From: Novipirellula galeiformis
GTDB taxonomy: Bacteria > Planctomycetota > Planctomycetia > Pirellulales > Pirellulaceae
Direction of reading: 5' to 3'
Assembly (NCBI RefSeq): GCF_007860095.1
Contig: NZ_SJPT01000001.1
Location: 572,212-636,211, forward strand
DNA length: 64,000 nucleotides
Shown here: positions 24,455-49,300 of the stretch, piece after piece
Position numbering within the stretch: the first letter of the stretch is position 1
How the letters are laid out: each line of letters starts with the position of its first letter
Position numbers and translations under genes: made by a program
Notes under the pieces: model-generated
What the model was told of the DNA's origin: nothing
The model's input: the letters and a program-made list of their open reading frames with translations, nothing else
The model's database searches: none

Positions 24455-25465
24455 ATGAGTCGTCGTTCAAAAAGGGGCTTTACGCTCGTTGAATTATTGG
24501 TGGTGATTGCCATCATCGGAGTGTTGGTTGGATTGTTGTTACCTGCGGTACAGGCGGCGCGTGAAGCGGCGCGGCGGATGTCGTGTAGCAACAACATGAA
24601 GCAAATCGGGTTGGCGCTGCATAACTACCACAGCGCCTTCAAAAAGTTCCCCTACTCGGCCGCAGGATTTGGCTCGATGACGAGCGGCAGTGCCGTTGCA
24701 GGTTTGACTAAGGTTCGTAATCACCGCGGTTGGATTGGGTTGTTGCCTTATATCGAACAGCAAGCTTTATACGATCAAACCGATTTATCGCTGGCGACGG
24801 GGGCGTACGAGCGGGATACATCCAAGTCCACGATTTCGGGACCAAAGCCGGGGGAACCGGGCAATGCCAATGACATCGTCGTGAGCACCGTGGTCGAGGC
24901 GTTTATGTGTCCATCGGATACAAATCCCACGAATTATACGACGACGAGCAGCCCTCATTACTCGATCTCGCCCGGAACAACGACCCTTCAGGGCGCTTTT
25001 ACCAACTATGACTTCAGCGTTCGTCGAGCTTCGGAATCGACTCCAAAGTGGAGTGAAGATTCGATGACGTCACGACGCATGTTTGGGATCGATGATTGGT
25101 CACGAATGCGAGATTTGACCGACGGTACTAGTAATACGATTGCAGTCGCTGAGACGCTTCGCTCCGTGATCAACGGGGTTGCACAGACTTGGGGCTACGC
25201 CAAATGGGTCGGTAGCGGTGTCGATTCTGCGTGGGCAAGAGGAATCAACGACAACGCCTGTTGCGGTTGGGATTCGCCACCCAACTCGCGCGCCCAGTTA
25301 CCCAGTCGGTTGGGAGAATGGTCGACGTCGGGAAGCTTACATCCCGGTGGAGCCCAGTTCACGTTGGCTGATGGCTCGGTCCGTTTTCTAAGTGACTCGA
25401 CCGAGTCAACCATCATGCTGCGATTGGGCTACATCGCCGATGGTCAAGTGCTTGGGGAGTTCTAG
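24455..25465 (+). CDS. DUF1559 pseudopilin-like protein, copy 1
   Basis: A 336-residue protein with a class III (type IV pilin-like) signal: the prepilin peptidase site is after Gly8, giving F-T-L-V-E with Glu at +5, followed by the hydrophobic [20 protein letters not shown] helix. The body is the DUF1559 (SBP_bac_10) domain and the C-terminus carries the H-X9-DG motif (His296, Asp306, Gly307) of the prepilin-processing-associated family. These proteins are hugely expanded in planctomycetes and are presumed surface or periplasmic pseudopilins exported by a type II-like system. It is by eye nearly identical over the first 60 residues to copies 2 and 3. Unlike those, no lipoprotein gene follows; a terminator does. 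Confidence 0.95.
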   Translation: MSRRSKRGFTLVELLVVIAIIGVLVGLLLPAVQAAREAARRMSCSNNMKQIGLALHNYHSAFKKFPYSAAGFGSMTSGSAVAGLTKVRNHRGWIGLLPYIEQQALYDQTDLSLATGAYERDTSKSTISGPKPGEPGNANDIVVSTVVEAFMCPSDTNPTNYTTTSSPHYSISPGTTTLQGAFTNYDFSVRRASESTPKWSEDSMTSRRMFGIDDWSRMRDLTDGTSNTIAVAETLRSVINGVAQTWGYAKWVGSGVDSAWARGINDNACCGWDSPPNSRAQLPSRLGEWSTSGSLHPGGAQFTLADGSVRFLSDSTESTIMLRLGYIADGQVLGEF

Positions 25466-26109: not shown

Positions 26110-27120
26110 ATGAGTCGTCGTTCAAGAAGGGGCTTTACGCTCGTTGAATTATTGGTGGTGATTGCCATCATCGGAGTATTAGTCGGATTGTTGTTGCCCG
26201 CGGTGCAGGCGGCGCGTGAAGCGGCGCGGCGGATGTCGTGTAGCAACAACATGAAACAGATTGGCTTGGCGTTGCACAATTATCACAGCGCCTTTAACAG
26301 GTTCCCCTATTCGACCTCGGGGGCCGGATCGATTGATAGTGGCAGTGCGATCCCAGGACTGACCAAGGTTCGTAACCATCGCGGATGGCTAGGTTTGTTG
26401 CCTTACATTGAACAGCAAGCGTTGTACGATCAAGCCGATATGTCGCTGGCGACCGGGGCGTACGAGCGGGATACATCCAAGGCCACTCTTTCGGGGCCGA
26501 AGCCAGGGCAGCCTGGCAATGCCAATGACATCGTTGTCAGCACGGCGGTGGAGGCGTTTTTGTGTCCCTCGGATTCGAATTCCACCCACTACTCCGACAC
26601 GTCGAGTGCTCATTACTCGATTTCCCCTGGGTCAACGACGCTCAAGGGGGCCTACACCAATTATGACTTCAGCATTCGGCGGACCTTTAATTCGGGGGTC
26701 ATCTGGAGTGAAGATGCGATGACGACGCGCCGTATGTTTGGTTTTGACGACTCCTCGCGGATGCGAGATCTTACCGATGGAACCAGCAATACCGTGGCGG
26801 TCTGTGAGACGCTGCGCAACATTATTGATGGAGTGGCGGCGACCTGGGGATACTCCAAATGGGTTGGCCATGGAGTGGATATCGTTTGGTCTCGCGGGAT
26901 CAACGACAATGAGTGTTGCGGTTGGACATCGCCACCGTACGCTCAGCAGCGGTTGCCCAGTCGGCTCGGTGAGTGGGGAACGTCGGGCAGTTTGCATCCC
27001 GGTGGAGCTCAATACACCTTGGGCGACGGCTCGGTTCGTTTCATTAGCGAGTCGATCGATTACACCACGTTGCAGCGGTTAGCGTATATCGCTGATGGTC
27101 AAGTGTTGGCGGATTTTTAA
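26110..27120 (+). CDS. DUF1559 pseudopilin-like protein, copy 2
   Basis: A 336-residue paralogue of the 24455 gene with identical length, the same [14 protein letters not shown] prepilin N-terminus, the DUF1559 body, and the H-X9-DG tail ([12 protein letters not shown]). Most differences from copy 1 lie in the middle of the protein. A small lipoprotein gene follows 99 bases after its stop, with no terminator between them, so the two are likely an operon. The 5' leader resembles that of copy 1 (T-rich, then GGAGAAGTGGTCTC before ATG). Confidence 0.95.
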   Translation: MSRRSRRGFTLVELLVVIAIIGVLVGLLLPAVQAAREAARRMSCSNNMKQIGLALHNYHSAFNRFPYSTSGAGSIDSGSAIPGLTKVRNHRGWLGLLPYIEQQALYDQADMSLATGAYERDTSKATLSGPKPGQPGNANDIVVSTAVEAFLCPSDSNSTHYSDTSSAHYSISPGSTTLKGAYTNYDFSIRRTFNSGVIWSEDAMTTRRMFGFDDSSRMRDLTDGTSNTVAVCETLRNIIDGVAATWGYSKWVGHGVDIVWSRGINDNECCGWTSPPYAQQRLPSRLGEWGTSGSLHPGGAQYTLGDGSVRFISESIDYTTLQRLAYIADGQVLADF

Positions 27121-29389: not shown

Positions 29390-30400
29390 ATGAATCCTCG
29401 TTCAAGAAATGGCTTTACCCTCGTTGAATTGCTGGTGGTGATTGCCATCATCGGGGTTTTAGTTGGGTTGTTGTTACCCGCCGTCCAAGCAGCGCGGGAA
29501 GCCGCTCGGCGGATGTCGTGTTCGAACAACATGAAGCAAATCGGATTGGCATTGCACAATTACCACAGTGCCTTTCAGAAGTTCCCTTATTCGGCGGGAG
29601 GAGCTGGTTCAATCACCTCGGGCAGTGCCATTCCGGGAATGAACAATGTGCGCAATCACCGCGGTTGGTTGGGCTTGCTGCCTTACATCGAGCAACAAGC
29701 GCTCTACGACCAAGCCGATTTGTCGATGGCGACCGGTGGCTATGTGCGGGATTCAGGCCAGAGCTCCATTGGGGGACCGCGGCCAGGAGAGCCTGGCAAT
29801 GTCAATGACGTTGTCGTCAGTACGGCGGTGGAGGCGTTCTTGTGTCCTTCCGATTCGAATCCCACCAACTACGCAACCACCAACAGTGATGCGTACTCCA
29901 TCTCCAACGGCACGACCACACTCAAGGGTGCGTACACGAACTATGAATTCAGCATCCGGCGGACTTCGAGTTCCGCTGCCAAATGGACTGAAGATTCGAT
30001 GACGACGCGACGGATGTTTGGTTTCGACGATTGGTCGCGGATACGAGATTTGACCGATGGTACTAGCAACACCGTGGCGATCTGTGAGACGCTTCGTGCC
30101 TGTATCGACGGGGTTGCGCAAACTTGGGGTTACACCAAGTGGGTCGGCAATGGAGTCGACTTGGTCTGGGCCCGTGGGATTAACGACAATGAATGTTGTG
30201 GTTGGGATGCCAGTCCCTACCAACGTGAAAGTCTCCCTAGCAGGTTAGGGGAATGGTCCACTTCGGGCAGCTTGCATCCCGGTGGTGCCCAATACACGTT
30301 GGGCGACGGTTCGGTGCGTTTCATTACGGATTCGACCGACTACATCACGTTGCAGCGGTTGGCCTATGTCTCGGATAATCAAGTGCTTGAAGGTTTTTAA
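29390..30400 (+). CDS. DUF1559 pseudopilin-like protein, copy 3
   Basis: The third 336-residue paralogue. The N-terminus [19 protein letters not shown] has the prepilin cleavage site after Gly8, and the C-terminus carries [12 protein letters not shown]. It is followed after 106 bases by lipoprotein copy B, repeating the arrangement of copy 2 with copy A. The first two residues after Met differ from the other copies, and the leader is shorter but also T/C-rich with GGGAGTGAG before the start. Confidence 0.95.
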
Positions 30401-44351: not shown

Positions 44352-47300
44352 TTATGAAGTTTGAGGATTCACGATCGATCCGATTTGATCAACGACATGC
44401 TGCACTAACTCGGCTCGGTCTTCGCAAAGGTAGGCAACATGATCCATCGCAGGATGGAAACAGGACGACACTTCGTGGCGTCCCCTCAGTTCGGGGAACA
44501 TGTGATCGAACTGGTTTGCGTAACTATAATACATCCCCACGCCACCGGTGTAGATAAAGTGCAAACGGGTTTGTCGATCGGCTAAGTTGGCTAATTGGGC
44601 GACCGCCTCGGTGCGTGAGGGGAACTCTCGGATGTCGTCCCCTTGTTGTAGTGATCGCGGTACTTTCTTGCGAATCCCCGTGATGCGGCGGATGACGTCG
44701 ACCCATTTGCTCGGTCGCAGCATCCGTTGCAGATGGTGTCCTGCAAAACGATGCCAATAGTAGGCGGGGGTGCGGTATCCGCATCCATCCATCGGCACGA
44801 CCCCCACGACACGATCATCGCGAACCGCGGCGTGCAGTGAGTCGTCCGCACCACTGCACAAGCCAAAGAGAATCACCTTTTCGATCTTCGTGTTTTGCTC
44901 GATCCAATCGATCGCTTGGCTAATCTCGTCTGCGGCGCGATCGATGGATCGCCCTCCCACGCCGACACCAAAACTCTCGCCGATTCCCGAAATGTCGAAA
45001 CGCAACGACGCAATGCCATGACGAGCGAGGGATCGCGCCAAGTCGACATGCAAACGAAACGGGCCGACATGATGTAACATTCCTGCCGTGACGAAGATCA
45101 CCGCAGTGTCGGTCTGAGTTTGCTGGACCGACGGCTGCCAAACGCCAAGCAAATGGTTGTAGTTGCCAAAGACGATCGCGTTCGGTTGCGAGTTCGGCAC
45201 CGTTGGCTGTGTTTCCGACTGAAGATTCACCGAGGTGGGCGAATCGTCGGACGTGTGTCGCGGAAGGAGTCCGAGAATCGCTTTGACGCTTTCGGGTGAG
45301 GAAAACGCACTCTCCGTGTATTGAGTTGCTTCCCAACGAACGTCATCGGAAACATCGATGACGTTGGATTGCGAACGCAACCAAGCTGATTCGCCAGCGG
45401 AAGTCATACTTTGCTTGGTGACGATCACGGCGGTGTTCGGTCGGTTCAAGGGGACGCGAAGCGACTTTAGGCTGTTTCGTTTTTTGGGCGACATCGCGTG
45501 ACCATAGCTTTGGTCGATCGCACCCGCCGATCGGATGCTGCGGAAACGCTGCAGTCCCACCAATTCCTGGTGATGAAATTGGTCCAGCATTTTGACGAAC
45601 GTATCGCCGTTGATGACCGGATCCCAAAGGATGAATTGATCAAAGGTTGCCGGGGGCACGGTCGCGGCGATGCTGGCTCCCATCCGCAGCCCGATGGCGG
45701 TGATGTGCTGCACACCGCTTTGCCGCTGTAAATGATCGCGAGCGTCAATCAGGTTGCGTTGCATTTGCTCGGCGGTTAACTCTTCACAGCGGCCATGGGA
45801 GTTGCCGGTGTTGGCGTAATCAAAACGCAGGACATCGAAGCCATGGCTGCACAATTGCAAGGCTAATTGCTGCAAATTGCGATAGCCGCGTGCATATTCG
45901 TGCCCGATCGAATGGCAAAGCACGACGCCGCGGCGAAGTCGATTCCCCCGAGGCCGGTAATGCACGCCGTAAAGCGATTGGCCATCGCTCGGAAAAAAGT
46001 GAGCCTCGGCATGGGGTAAGCGTTCGCGAAACGCCCAAATGTCTTCGTCGGGCGATTCGCCATCGACTTGACCGAGTAAGCGACGCAAATGGCGAGCGGA
46101 TGTTGCGATCGTAGGGTTGGCAAAAAAATCACGCACTGGCAAATCGATGTCCATGTCCGTGGTCAAACGAGCCACCACCTGAGTGACCAACAGCGAACTT
46201 CCGCCGAGCAAGAAAAAATCGTCATGGATGCCAATCTCAGGCACGTTCAATACGTCTTGCCAAAGCTCCACGAGGCGACGTTCGAGATCGTCACGCGGCG
46301 CTACAAAACTTTCGTCTCGTGGCACAATCCCTTCGTTTGGCGACGGTAATGCTCGACGATCAATTTTGCCGTTGATCGTTTTCGGAAAGGAATCAATGAA
46401 GACGTACCGAGCCGGAATCATGTACGCCGGCAGCAAGTTGCGCAGGGACTTTGCAATCAGATTGGCGTCAATCGATTGTTTGCCATGAGCGACATACGCA
46501 ACAAGGTATTTCTTGCCATCGACCTCGTCGTAGCTCACCAATGAACTTAGCACCCCAGGGGCTTGGTCGATCGCGGCTTCAATCTCCGCCGGTTCAATGC
46601 GGTAAGACCCCAGTTTGATTTGGTGATCGACACGTCCGCCAAAGTCGATGTTGCCATCGGGTAACCAACGCGCCAAATCGCCGGTGCGATACAAACGTAG
46701 ATCCTCTCCGTTGATCGTGACGTTTAGAAAAACCTCGTCGGTGAGCTCGGGCCGGTTCAAGTATCCCAACGCCAGCCCGGGGCCACCAATATACAGGTGG
46801 CCTGTTTCGCCTTCGGCGACGGGTTTCAATTCATGATCGAGAATGTGAGCGGTGTATCGCTTCAGCGGTTTGCCGATTGGCATATTGGCCGCATCAAACG
46901 TCTCATCAGGAATATAAACGGTCGACGTGACGGTGGCTTCGGTCGGTCCATACGCGTTGCAAAACAAGACGTCGTGATCGCATAACGTTTGCCAGCGTCG
47001 ATAGTGCTGGACCGACACCTTTTCTCCGGTCGGGATGATCAAACGCAGGGTCTCCGGCACGCGTTCTTTGGACGCGACCATCAAATCAACCCATTGGTGC
47101 CAATACGCCGCAGCGATATGAACCGCCGTGATTTCGAAACGACGAATCAGGCTTGAGAGTTCATTGCGATGATTGGCGCGGCCGCGCGGACGAACCACCA
47201 CGCAGCTGCCCGAGAGCAACGGTGGGAAAATTTCTTCGATCGCAATGTCAAAGCACAGCGTGGAAAACTGAAGCGTGCGATCGCTCTCACTCAAGCGAAA

Positions 47301-47918
47301 GACATCGATATCCGCAAAGCAATAGGTGGCCAACGCCGAATGTTGAATCTGGACCCCTTTGGGTTTCCCCGTCGAACCGGAGGTGTACATGATGTACGCC
47401 AAATCGCTGGGCGCAATCGTGAGCGTGGGGTTCAGCATTGCCGAATTCGTATTCGCATGCAAAGGGGCGGGTTTGCACTCGATCCAGTTTGTCGTGTTGA
47501 GCTTTTCTTGTCCGGGGCTGCTGGCCTGGATCAACGGAACGCCAATCGATTCACGATAATTTTCATGACCGATGATCGTGGTGATGGCGGCATCCTCGAC
47601 CATGTACCGGAGGCGATCGACGGGGTAATCGGGGTCCAGCGGCACAAAGACCGCACCGAGCTTCATGATCCCCAGCATCGACGCAATCGCCTCGGGCGAT
47701 CGGTCCACACACAGACCAACACGGGAACCGTGTTGGATCCCGTGGTCGATCAACTCACACGCGATCGCGCTGGATTGGCGATCGAGTTCCTGGTACGTCC
47801 ACTGAACGTCTTCGCTGACGATGGCAACACGGTCGGGAGTACGGTCGAGTTGACGCGCCCATAACTCTGGAAACGAAATCAGTTCTTCCAAAGTTTGACT
47901 TTGAAGTGAATTTGGCAT
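44352..47918 (-). CDS. NRPS-like A-T protein fused to two alpha/beta-hydrolase domains
   Basis: A 1188-residue protein. Residues ~10-525 are an adenylation domain: core A3 YTSGSTGKPKG (178-188), NAYGPTEAT (321-329), YRTGDL (410-415), and the catalytic lysine K518 in NGKIDRR. Residues ~540-615 are a thiolation (PCP) domain with phosphopantetheine Ser575 in LGGSS. Two alpha/beta-hydrolase domains follow: ~640-860 with GLRMG at 743-747, whose nucleophile position is Arg745, and ~935-1180 with GLCSG at 1019-1023, giving Cys1021 with a likely His1160. There is no condensation domain and no canonical Ser thioesterase. The pair GLR-M-G / GLC-S-G resembles the two exosortase-A-system-associated hydrolases (TIGR03101/TIGR03100). 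It follows an EctB-type aminotransferase gene by 53 bases. Confidence 0.88.
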   Translation of the reverse strand: MPNSLQSQTLEELISFPELWARQLDRTPDRVAIVSEDVQWTYQELDRQSSAIACELIDHGIQHGSRVGLCVDRSPEAIASMLGIMKLGAVFVPLDPDYPVDRLRYMVEDAAITTIIGHENYRESIGVPLIQASSPGQEKLNTTNWIECKPAPLHANTNSAMLNPTLTIAPSDLAYIMYTSGSTGKPKGVQIQHSALATYCFADIDVFRLSESDRTLQFSTLCFDIAIEEIFPPLLSGSCVVVRPRGRANHRNELSSLIRRFEITAVHIAAAYWHQWVDLMVASKERVPETLRLIIPTGEKVSVQHYRRWQTLCDHDVLFCNAYGPTEATVTSTVYIPDETFDAANMPIGKPLKRYTAHILDHELKPVAEGETGHLYIGGPGLALGYLNRPELTDEVFLNVTINGEDLRLYRTGDLARWLPDGNIDFGGRVDHQIKLGSYRIEPAEIEAAIDQAPGVLSSLVSYDEVDGKKYLVAYVAHGKQSIDANLIAKSLRNLLPAYMIPARYVFIDSFPKTINGKIDRRALPSPNEGIVPRDESFVAPRDDLERRLVELWQDVLNVPEIGIHDDFFLLGGSSLLVTQVVARLTTDMDIDLPVRDFFANPTIATSARHLRRLLGQVDGESPDEDIWAFRERLPHAEAHFFPSDGQSLYGVHYRPRGNRLRRGVVLCHSIGHEYARGYRNLQQLALQLCSHGFDVLRFDYANTGNSHGRCEELTAEQMQRNLIDARDHLQRQSGVQHITAIGLRMGASIAATVPPATFDQFILWDPVINGDTFVKMLDQFHHQELVGLQRFRSIRSAGAIDQSYGHAMSPKKRNSLKSLRVPLNRPNTAVIVTKQSMTSAGESAWLRSQSNVIDVSDDVRWEATQYTESAFSSPESVKAILGLLPRHTSDDSPTSVNLQSETQPTVPNSQPNAIVFGNYNHLLGVWQPSVQQTQTDTAVIFVTAGMLHHVGPFRLHVDLARSLARHGIASLRFDISGIGESFGVGVGGRSIDRAADEISQAIDWIEQNTKIEKVILFGLCSGADDSLHAAVRDDRVVGVVPMDGCGYRTPAYYWHRFAGHHLQRMLRPSKWVDVIRRITGIRKKVPRSLQQGDDIREFPSRTEAVAQLANLADRQTRLHFIYTGGVGMYYSYANQFDHMFPELRGRHEVSSCFHPAMDHVAYLCEDRAELVQHVVDQIGSIVNPQTS

Positions 47919-47971
47919 GAGCAGCGTGAGATCGGAGTCTGGGTGTGGGAATGCATGTCGAAACGTCTTTG

Positions 47972-49300
47972 TTAAAGGTTCGTCGTGACGCTCATACTCG
48001 CGGTATGGAACACCTCGGCAGGTGCCTTGACGGGTTTGAATAACGAAGCATCTACCGCCGACTCGAGGATTTGCAACCCTTTTTCAAGCAGCGATGTTTC
48101 GATGGTTAACGCCGGCATCACCTTCAATACCTGGTCATGTGCCCCGGCTCCTTCGATCAATAAGCCATGCTTGAATGCTTCGGCAATCGTCTCGCTAGCG
48201 AGATCACCACAGCGGAGGTCGAGGCCCCAGATGAGTCCGCGTCCGCGCACTCGAAATTGTCGCGCGCTGTGTTTCGCACAAATGGCATGCAGTTTGGTTT
48301 GGACCCTCTGGCTGCGTTCTTCGATCTGTTGCTCGAAATCGGAGTCGTTCCAATACTCGAGCACGGCGCGAGCCGAGATGAATGCCAAATTGTTCCCACG
48401 GAATGTACCGGTATGTTCCCCCGGTTTCCAAACGTCGATTTCGGGACGGATTAAAACCAAGGACATTGGCAATCCGCCGCCGATGGACTTGGAAATACAA
48501 ACCATGTCGGGAACGATCCCAGCGTGTTCAAAACTGAAGAATTTTCCACTGCGACCGTTGCCGACTTGGATATCGTCAACGATTAAGTGGATGCCGTGCT
48601 GTTTGCATAGCGAGGCGATGCGTCGGAGCCAAGCGTCGCTGGCAACGTTGATGCCCCCTTCGCCCTGAATCGTTTCCAGGATCACGGCAGCAGGAAGTGG
48701 CAATCCACTGCTAGGATCATTGAGCATCTTTTCGAAAAGTGTTGAAGTATCTAGGTCTCCCATGTAGCCATCAAATGGCAGGTGGGTTACATCGTTGTGC
48801 GAACCGTAGTATTCGCTGTGGAAGAACTGGTTGCCGGTCAACGCCAAGGCGCCAAGCGAATGGCCGTGATATGCGTTTGTAAACGCAACGACATGCGAAC
48901 GCTGAGTTTGCTTGCGAGCGAGCTTGACCGCAGCTTCGACCGCATTCGTTCCGGTCGGTCCGGTGAACTGAATGCGGTAATCGAGCTTTCGAGGTCGCAG
49001 GATGATACGTTCAAAGGCATCGAGAAAATCGACCTTGGCCGAGGTCACGGTGTCCAACGAATGTTGAATGCCATCCCGCTCGATGTAAGCGAGTAACGCC
49101 TGTTTCGCCTGCCGATTGTTATGCCCATAGTTGAGCGAACCCGCGCCACAAAAGAAATCGATGAAGGATTTACCATGGGTATCCGTCATCGTGGATCCTA
49201 CCGCCGTGTCAAAAACAGTGGGAAACAGACGTGCATAACCCCGTACGTTCGATTCGATTGGTTCAATAGGATCTTGCATCGGTGACGATTCCTTGGGCAA
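47972..49300 (-). CDS. Class III aminotransferase, diaminobutyrate-2-oxoglutarate (EctB-like)
   Basis: A 442-residue PLP-dependent class III aminotransferase. EctB-type segments are clear: GAGSLNYGHNN, IQFTGPTGTNAVEAAVKLAR, FTNAYHGHSLGALALTGN, LIVDDIQVGNGRSGKFFSFE, and the PLP lysine K271 in CISKSIGGGLPMS. EctB enzymes convert aspartate-semialdehyde to L-2,4-diaminobutyrate. ectA and ectC are absent nearby, so ectoine synthesis is unlikely; 2,4-diaminobutyrate as substrate of the downstream A domain is the simplest explanation. It is the first gene of the operon. Confidence 0.9.
   Translation of the reverse strand: MPKESSPMQDPIEPIESNVRGYARLFPTVFDTAVGSTMTDTHGKSFIDFFCGAGSLNYGHNNRQAKQALLAYIERDGIQHSLDTVTSAKVDFLDAFERIILRPRKLDYRIQFTGPTGTNAVEAAVKLARKQTQRSHVVAFTNAYHGHSLGALALTGNQFFHSEYYGSHNDVTHLPFDGYMGDLDTSTLFEKMLNDPSSGLPLPAAVILETIQGEGGINVASDAWLRRIASLCKQHGIHLIVDDIQVGNGRSGKFFSFEHAGIVPDMVCISKSIGGGLPMSLVLIRPEIDVWKPGEHTGTFRGNNLAFISARAVLEYWNDSDFEQQIEERSQRVQTKLHAICAKHSARQFRVRGRGLIWGLDLRCGDLASETIAEAFKHGLLIEGAGAHDQVLKVMPALTIETSLLEKGLQILESAVDASLFKPVKAPAEVFHTASMSVTTNL

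Follow-up and report, generated by a model that had tools for sequence, protein, structure and literature searches.

In the CmaA/CmaE, SyrC and CysH/CysB systems a lone loading module stands outside the assembly line and a separate enzyme (CmaE, SyrC or CysB) shuttles the aminoacyl group between carriers (PMC8748450, PMC7966384). The exosortase A-associated cassette combines a pyridoxal phosphate (PLP) enzyme, the TIGR03099 decarboxylase, with an adenylating enzyme, the TIGR03098 acyl ligase, a carrier and a pair of hydrolases (TIGR03100 and TIGR03101). Clusters with an amino acid:[carrier protein] ligase (PRK07080) hold a carrier, an amino acid loading enzyme and, in five plasmid loci, a protein with a related hydrolase pair, while cationic homopolymer synthetases (PosA, epsilon-poly-lysine synthetase) have a pocket code for basic amino acids. 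Here we describe a locus with likenesses to each of these and to the ectoine EctB (TIGR02407), in 64,000 nucleotides of Novipirellula galeiformis (contig NZ_SJPT01000001.1, positions 572,212 to 636,211; hereafter the window). An EctB-type aminotransferase gene is followed by a gene for one long protein with an adenylation (A) domain, a thiolation (T, carrier) domain and two alpha/beta-hydrolase folds, H2 and H1. We consider a self-contained operon for loading and transferring an aminoacyl group the best explanation of this arrangement, with a probability of about 0.5.

The locus departs from each described system. Its aminotransferase is a full-length equivalog match that retains the PLP lysine, yet it has no EctA or EctC partner, falls in a clade of its own, carries His and Thr at two modelled substrate-site positions and appears to feed an A-T protein. 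Unlike the exosortase A cassette it has an EctB in place of the decarboxylase and an A domain of the nonribosomal peptide synthetase (NRPS) type in place of the acyl ligase, and its hydrolases score far below the family cut-offs; no exosortase or exopolysaccharide gene was found among six window proteins scanned, the whole genome not having been searched for exosortases. The likeness to the CmaE, SyrC and CysB systems lies in the arrangement, and the operon differs in having two hydrolase-fold partners, one of them fused to the carrier, and no receiving carrier. In comparison with PosA and epsilon-poly-lysine synthetase, H2-H1 takes the place of the membrane-embedded polymerising region, the C-terminal half consisting of alpha/beta hydrolases by Pfam and AlphaFold2, which places the protein outside that family. 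In the PRK07080 clusters the loading enzyme is seryl-tRNA-synthetase-like and the partners are acyl-CoA dehydrogenase, DUF1839 and GH2 proteins. No description of the operon was found in the literature searched, which covered titles and abstract openings and left most subscription journals outside.

Layout and conservation of the gene pair

Both genes lie on the minus strand. The aminotransferase gene (47972-49279) encodes 435 residues, with the PLP lysine at K264; its open reading frame (ORF) was listed from a TTG at 49300, and we adopted the ATG at 49279 because the alignment with homologues begins to hold there. After a gap of 53 nt follows the gene for the A-T-H2-H1 protein (44352-47918, 1188 residues), in which Pfam places AMP-binding at residues 21-387, AMP-binding_C at 445-518, PP-binding at 547-611 and two alpha/beta-hydrolase regions. 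The A domain (about residues 1-530; 46329-47918; PF00501/PF13193, TIGR01733) leads into the T domain (about 540-612; 46083-46301; PF00550, 56.2 bits), whose LGGSSL motif contains serines S574/S575, invariant in seven aligned sequences. H2 (about 621-890; 45249-46058) and H1 (about 910-1188; 44352-45191) complete the protein. A sequence-only reading of the window had reported just this order, with no condensation domain, and both points hold: a Pfam scan at E <= 0.001 gave none in the 1188-residue protein. Nor did Pfam find there a thioesterase domain (PF00975), so the protein lacks what marks a canonical multimodular NRPS. Two genes of the phosphopantetheinyl transferase (PPTase) superfamily lie elsewhere in the 7.4-Mb genome, outside the operon.

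To follow the pair we used two samples. Among 296 genomes of the host's order, 102 had matches to the A-T protein at E <= 1e-40; among the matches listed, those running from the A domain into the hydrolase region came from seven genomes including that of the window, and in the six others (6/6, again among the matches listed) EctB was directly upstream. A scan of named genomes with H1, using the patterns FGLCSGAD and R[FY][DC][LI]SGIGE, yielded 55 loci (L numbers denote loci, G numbers genomes). The same A domain, judged by its pocket code, occurred in 26 of them, with EctB directly upstream in 23, in both planctomycetes and gammaproteobacteria. As five named loci (L068, L079, L085, L088, L089) overlap with the order sample, the two adjacency counts are not independent. 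EctB was common to 23 of 29 compared loci, the window included (in L088 it is present though missed by the ORF filter), and the next commonest neighbour family to 4 of 29; the pairing is therefore not due to chance. Distances between the two genes range from about -92 to +134 nt in the named loci and are approximate because ORF starts were set at the first start codon.

The pair is thus almost certainly a conserved operon. The sequence-only reading had held that the two genes belong together unless their homologues were never adjacent elsewhere, and the 23 of 26 named loci bear it out. It had proposed to look across planctomycetes; the pair reaches further, into gammaproteobacteria, and some operons add a PPTase gene, which lies directly 3' of H1 in six loci by Pfam (L072, L077, L085, L093, L076, L087). 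The hydrolase domains it described as fused are so here, but in most relatives H1 is a separate gene: fusion to A-T-H2 is confined to the window, L066, L081, L091 and L092 among loci with this A domain, and to L066 and L081 among the 23 EctB-linked named loci. We also considered a larger cluster with a fixed set of neighbours and rejected it, since apart from the PPTase gene no other neighbour recurs widely. The operon could also be what is left of a larger NRPS cluster, dispensable and now without function, as its patchy spread (7 of 296 order-sample genomes, among the matches listed) might suggest; the aligned sequences retain the key catalytic residues and the gene order holds across two phyla, which makes this highly improbable.

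Three of the 26 named loci have no adjacent EctB: L083, which begins at a contig edge and whose genome has no EctB match at E <= 1e-30, and L091 and L092 from Granulosicoccaceae. In the L091 genome an EctB without EctA lies about 15 kb away, on a contig of equal length, and belongs to the operon clade on a long branch; in the L092 genome no close EctB was found (best match 27-32% identity). In the stretch 4371-10858 of L091, genes for a DAO FAD oxidoreductase and a DegT/DnrJ-type aminotransferase lie directly upstream of the fused A-T-H2-H1 gene, which has the same pocket code. Two metagenome-assembled genomes of Leucothrix/Thiotrichaceae have a truncated T-H2 plus H1 without A, with an upstream gene in common (L074:3048-5203 and L075:5886-7882); either the assembly may be broken there or this may be a second locus, and the L074 genome has an EctB-A pair interrupted by a contig end. 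In G279 a match with an internal TGA was considered for selenocysteine or readthrough and turned out to be two adjacent ORFs in one frame; G237 also gave a match with such a TGA. A tblastn search of plasmids with the whole A-T-H2-H1 protein gave no record covering 80% of the query; the best 25 of 1198 matches covered the A-T region, a few reaching into H2 (residue 783 at most).

A scan for promoters and terminators gave a site count below the shuffle mean, and a defence function was considered and set aside, neither protein having a PADLOC match at E <= 1e-5. On the plus strand of the window three ORFs of 336 residues each (24455-25465, 26110-27120, 29390-30400) were noted; as two share a match to one protein of another locus, they resemble tandem paralogues.

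The aminotransferase and the adenylation pocket

The aminotransferase scores 628.7 bits against the EctB equivalog TIGR02407 (cut-off 552.2), and its closest solved structures are EctB proteins (9s1q, 6rl5); the PLP lysine is retained. The sequence-only reading had noted that ectA and ectC are missing. This stands in part: no EctA was found within 1.5 kb of the window EctB, a genome-wide EctA search not having been made, and EctC had no match in the genome, where the control was weak, as none of 14 control genomes matched either. In a control with seven genomes EctC matched only in G279, below the cut-off and on a contig other than that of its ectAB. The neighbours scanned belong to other families, and with EctB in a separate clade we rejected an ectoine pathway on these searches.

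The order sample separates two kinds of EctB. At E <= 1e-90 it contains 28 EctB loci in 27 of the 296 genomes. Eight are 61-100% identical to the window EctB, seven of them followed by the A domain; the other 20 are 49-53% identical and all stand beside EctA (20/20), the EctA query having come from one of these 20 and passing TIGR02406 with 168.9 bits (cut-off 120.6). G279 has one EctB of each type. A maximum-likelihood tree of 49 EctBs put 25 operon and 21 ectoine EctBs on opposite sides of a branch with 100/100 support, three rows being unlabelled. Within the operon clade the gammaproteobacterial proteins of L072, L076 and L077 nest among those of planctomycetes, which suggests that the operon EctB moved between phyla. 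An equivalog match to EctB in planctomycetes is thus not always a sign of ectoine, the operon-type clade accounting for 8 of the 28 loci in the order sample. A survey of ectoine genes in planctomycetes published in 2026 began from EctC, and the text consulted does not contain the terms 'orphan', 'solitary', 'NRPS' or 'adenylation' (PMC13342039).

We then considered what the A domain accepts. It scores 405.7 bits against TIGR01733 (AA-adenyl-dom, cut-off 317.4), as expected of an NRPS A domain, and D224 (the Asp235 equivalent) and the A10 lysine K518 are invariant. Its pocket residues, in what we take to be the GrsA positions, are D224, I225, E228, H267, I295, T297, A322, V330, T331 and K518, the first three as the sequence-only reading had given them, and spell D-I-E-H-I-T-A-V-T-K. 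Across the window and the 26 loci the code is D-[IV]-E-H-[IV]-T-A-V-[TS]-K, varying between I and V at positions 2 and 5 and between T and S at position 9 (L083 is truncated). The syringomycin synthetase domain for L-2,4-diaminobutyrate (DAB) presumably has D-L-E-H-N-T-T-V-S-K. The published code of the ornithine-activating enzyme PosA is D-M-E-H-N-G-T-V-S-K, with Glu at position 3 holding the side-chain amine (PMC10522769). The window code shares Glu at position 3 and other residues with it and therefore fits a basic alpha,omega-diamino acid; the pocket is near-invariant and, by its residues, of a diamino-acid type. Literature searches for a DAB code gave nothing useful, and none appears in the portions of PMC3849588 and PMC4397504 that were available.

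By this sequence evidence the carrier is probably loaded with a diamino acid. That it is DAB in particular we regard as somewhat favoured: DAB is the first choice because of EctB, and ornithine or an analogue the second.

The H2 and H1 domains and the settings of their relatives

The sequence-only reading had called these domains simply hydrolases. They are a more specific pair, related to the exosortase A-associated hydrolases 2 and 1. The best NCBIfam match of H2 is TIGR03101 (61.3 bits, cut-off 202.75) and that of H1 is TIGR03100 (70.5 bits, cut-off 168.45); scores so far under the cut-offs make them relatives and not members of these families. AlphaFold2 predicts confident alpha/beta-hydrolase folds for both (mean pLDDT 91.4 for H1 and 89.1 for H2). 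A search of the PDB with the two models was of no use for function, as they match many generic alpha/beta hydrolases such as feruloyl esterases and lipases and nothing specific. Searches of the literature on the exosortase hydrolases yielded nothing useful, and the text consulted of Haft 2006 (PMC1569441) contains neither 'hydrolase' nor 'ligase'.

H1 has Cys1021 at the nucleophile elbow (motif GLCSGADD) and also His1160; at its own elbow H2 has Arg745 and no Ser. The Cys (C116 of the aligned H1 piece) is present in 37 of 37 aligned sequences, where His255 of the piece is also invariant, and the Arg (R125 of the H2 piece) in 32 of 32. The alignments comprised the window and 36 (H1) or 31 (H2) of the 55 loci, fused, truncated and some redundant loci having been omitted by hand. 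Conservation of the Cys is partly built in because the pattern for the named-genome scan contains it, and we therefore turned to loci found without a pattern: 11 plasmid loci, from 32 and 49 matching records of a protein search with the L105 pair, and 14 planctomycete loci from a profile search of 392 genomes of the phylum, of which 42 matched (41 besides the window's own). In these the H1 Cys was present in 25 of 25, while at the H2 elbow 20 loci (7 plasmid, 13 planctomycete) had Arg, five (4 plasmid, 1 planctomycete) had Gly and none had Ser.

Relatives of the pair adjoin NRPS and polyketide synthase (PKS) genes, and we scanned 13 megasynthases that adjoin H2-H1 or bear H2 (L094, L095, L096, L097, L100, L104, L105, L106, L107, L114, L115, L117 and the planctomycete L201). 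None had a thioesterase domain at E <= 1e-5 (0/13), and in 11 of them the carrier was the last domain before H2, which was the next gene or was fused (L094, L106, L201). The pair there takes the position of a thioesterase. For other linked loci, such as L098, L099, L101-L103, L110-L113 and L116, the evidence is from BLAST only. A domains near the more distant pairs have unrelated codes, for example DILQLGMVWK, so H2-H1 is not tied to diamino acids. In two Gemmatimonas loci (L105:14042-17483, L107:14064-17490) a free-standing A-T with its own H2 and H1 neighbours a PKS/NRPS set equipped with a further pair of this kind.

Type II thioesterases adjoin NRPS/PKS genes as well, and H2-H1 might accordingly do nothing but proofread, hydrolysing a misloaded or stalled carrier while a synthetase encoded at another place in the genome uses the amino acid. 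We find this improbable. No second NRPS-like module was seen in the window's own genome, where the 12 other matches to A-T-H2-H1 lie within residues 26-526 (25-38% identity) and none (0/12) extends to the carrier or to H2-H1; further, H2 is fused to the carrier and H1 has a Cys and not a Ser.

Away from megasynthases the pair keeps company with other carrier systems. Plasmids of Azospirillum (twice), Mycetohabitans, Rhizobium (by annotation) and Methylobacterium (by tblastn) have H2-H1 with an acyl carrier protein and an amino acid:[carrier protein] ligase; at L218, L220, L222, L224 and L226 we observed a recurrent cluster of acyl carrier protein, acyl-CoA dehydrogenase, amino acid:[carrier protein] ligase, DUF1839, GH2 and H2-H1 protein. 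On a Variovorax plasmid H2-H1 occurs with two NRPS genes, a PPTase gene and polysaccharide export genes, and in an exopolysaccharide locus of a Shinella plasmid it lies with a carrier and two enzymes, a ligase like TIGR03098 (566.8 bits, cut-off 592.35) and a decarboxylase like TIGR03099 (413.1 bits, cut-off 478.45). Overall, the 8-12 kb flank includes an enzyme that loads a carrier in 7 of the 11 plasmid loci, and 6 of the 14 planctomycete pairs from the phylum search have an A, T or C-T (condensation-thiolation) match in the stretch (five by BLAST, L201 by Pfam). In seven genomes of NRPS-linked relatives TIGR03099 matched in all seven and exceeded its cut-off in none.

Chlorinating enzymes can act on carrier-bound amino acids; at the planctomycete locus L197 (4875-10502) a 911-residue protein with a sub-cut-off match to a chlorinating-enzyme family (TIGR01762) is followed by a gene for 381 residues and then H2-H1. 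At another, L198 (3920-8048), H2-H1 lies between glycosyltransferase genes that are sub-cut-off relatives of exopolysaccharide/XrtA-system families.

A proposed route and how it is weighed

We propose the following route. The EctB-type transaminase would make a short alpha,omega-diamino acid, most likely DAB from aspartate semialdehyde and glutamate. The A domain would adenylate it and load it onto the fused T domain, presumably made holo by a PPTase, whose gene belongs to the operon in some relatives and lies at another place in the genome here. H1 might then accept the aminoacyl group on Cys1021 and pass it to an acceptor outside the operon; some aminoacyl shuttles use Cys. H2, fused to the carrier and lacking a nucleophile, may serve as a docking or acceptor-binding partner. 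As there are no condensation, thioesterase or reductase domains, H2-H1 is the only visible release route, and we lean slightly towards aminoacyl transfer over plain hydrolysis. As exopolysaccharide loci hold some relatives of the pair, our first guess for the acceptor is a saccharide or another molecule of the cell surface.

Release could instead be intramolecular: on its own or through the action of H1, the diaminobutyryl thioester would close to a gamma-lactam, 3-aminopyrrolidin-2-one or a derivative of it, and the operon would make a small cyclic solute that shares its origin with ectoine. All the parts this needs are in the operon, and no acceptor gene is found repeatedly in the neighbourhood. 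Thioesters with a gamma-amino group tend by their chemistry to form lactams, and EctB otherwise supplies the pathway to ectoine, itself a cyclic solute. A route with two hydrolase domains and a carrier that uses ATP would, however, be a costly way to a lactam, and H2-H1 accompanies quite different loading systems elsewhere, which speaks against a dedicated lactam-former; we judge it unlikely.

Several observations weigh against the transfer operon as proposed, first among them those on its substrate. Pocket position 2 is Ile, whereas the PosA study gives Met for PosA and Phe for the synthetases for poly-diaminopropionate (poly-DAP) and poly-DAB, and its authors propose that this position sets the chain length, with Ala for lysine (PMC10522769). 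In the aminotransferase, Met149 and Asn301 of the Paenibacillus lautus EctB were singled out in a modelled active site and linked to substrate binding (PMC6915088). Mapped by spacing from the PLP lysine they correspond to H140 and T290 of the window protein, and all 25 operon EctBs have His and Thr there; ectoine EctBs have Met in 20 of 21 and Asn in 21 of 21. With this exchange in 25 of 25, the operon transaminase may use a different substrate from that of ectoine EctB. The sequence-only reading's proposal that the aminotransferase supplies DAB thus gains a pocket of the fitting type but is weaker than it was put. The loaded substrate may be ornithine or a DAB analogue, from a transaminase with shifted substrate, under the same transfer logic. 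The closest published code we found, that of the ornithine enzyme PosA, would agree with this, while the aminotransferase is well over the EctB equivalog cut-off and has EctB proteins as its nearest solved relatives; we judge such a substrate less likely than DAB.

The remaining points concern how tightly the parts belong together. G208 has an operon-type EctB (L203:258-1661) on a 4.7-kb contig, where the ORFs behind it include neither an A domain nor A-T, and in L091 and L092 the A-T-H2-H1 protein has no neighbouring EctB. The matches to TIGR03100 and TIGR03101 are both below cut-off. Two of the 13 megasynthases (Marinobacter L115 and L117) end in a second condensation domain after the carrier. 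Among the plasmid loci L225 has only the DUF1839/GH2 part of the cluster, and L217, L221 and L223 (3/11) show none of the queries tried; in 8 of the 14 planctomycete pairs given by the phylum search the stretch shows no match to A, T or C-T, and none of the 14 has EctB. At this sensitivity the link of H2-H1 to carriers is therefore frequent and not universal.

More broadly, and tentatively, H2-H1 could be a general two-protein system for off-loading carriers, an alternative to release by thioesterase, reductase or condensation domains that acts at NRPS/PKS termini, with amino acid:carrier ligases and in exopolysaccharide acyl-ligase sets. H1 would form the Cys-acyl intermediate and H2 would dock the carrier or bind the acceptor, and the window would hold a minimal single-amino-acid version that passes a diamino acid to a possibly cell-surface acceptor. 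The proposal offers a testable function for two hydrolase families named by NCBIfam only after their association with exosortase loci, on the basis of relatives that follow NRPS/PKS carriers, stand beside amino acid:carrier ligases or accompany an exopolysaccharide ligase/carrier set. The small size of the operon permits full reconstitution, so that its release chemistry is directly testable.

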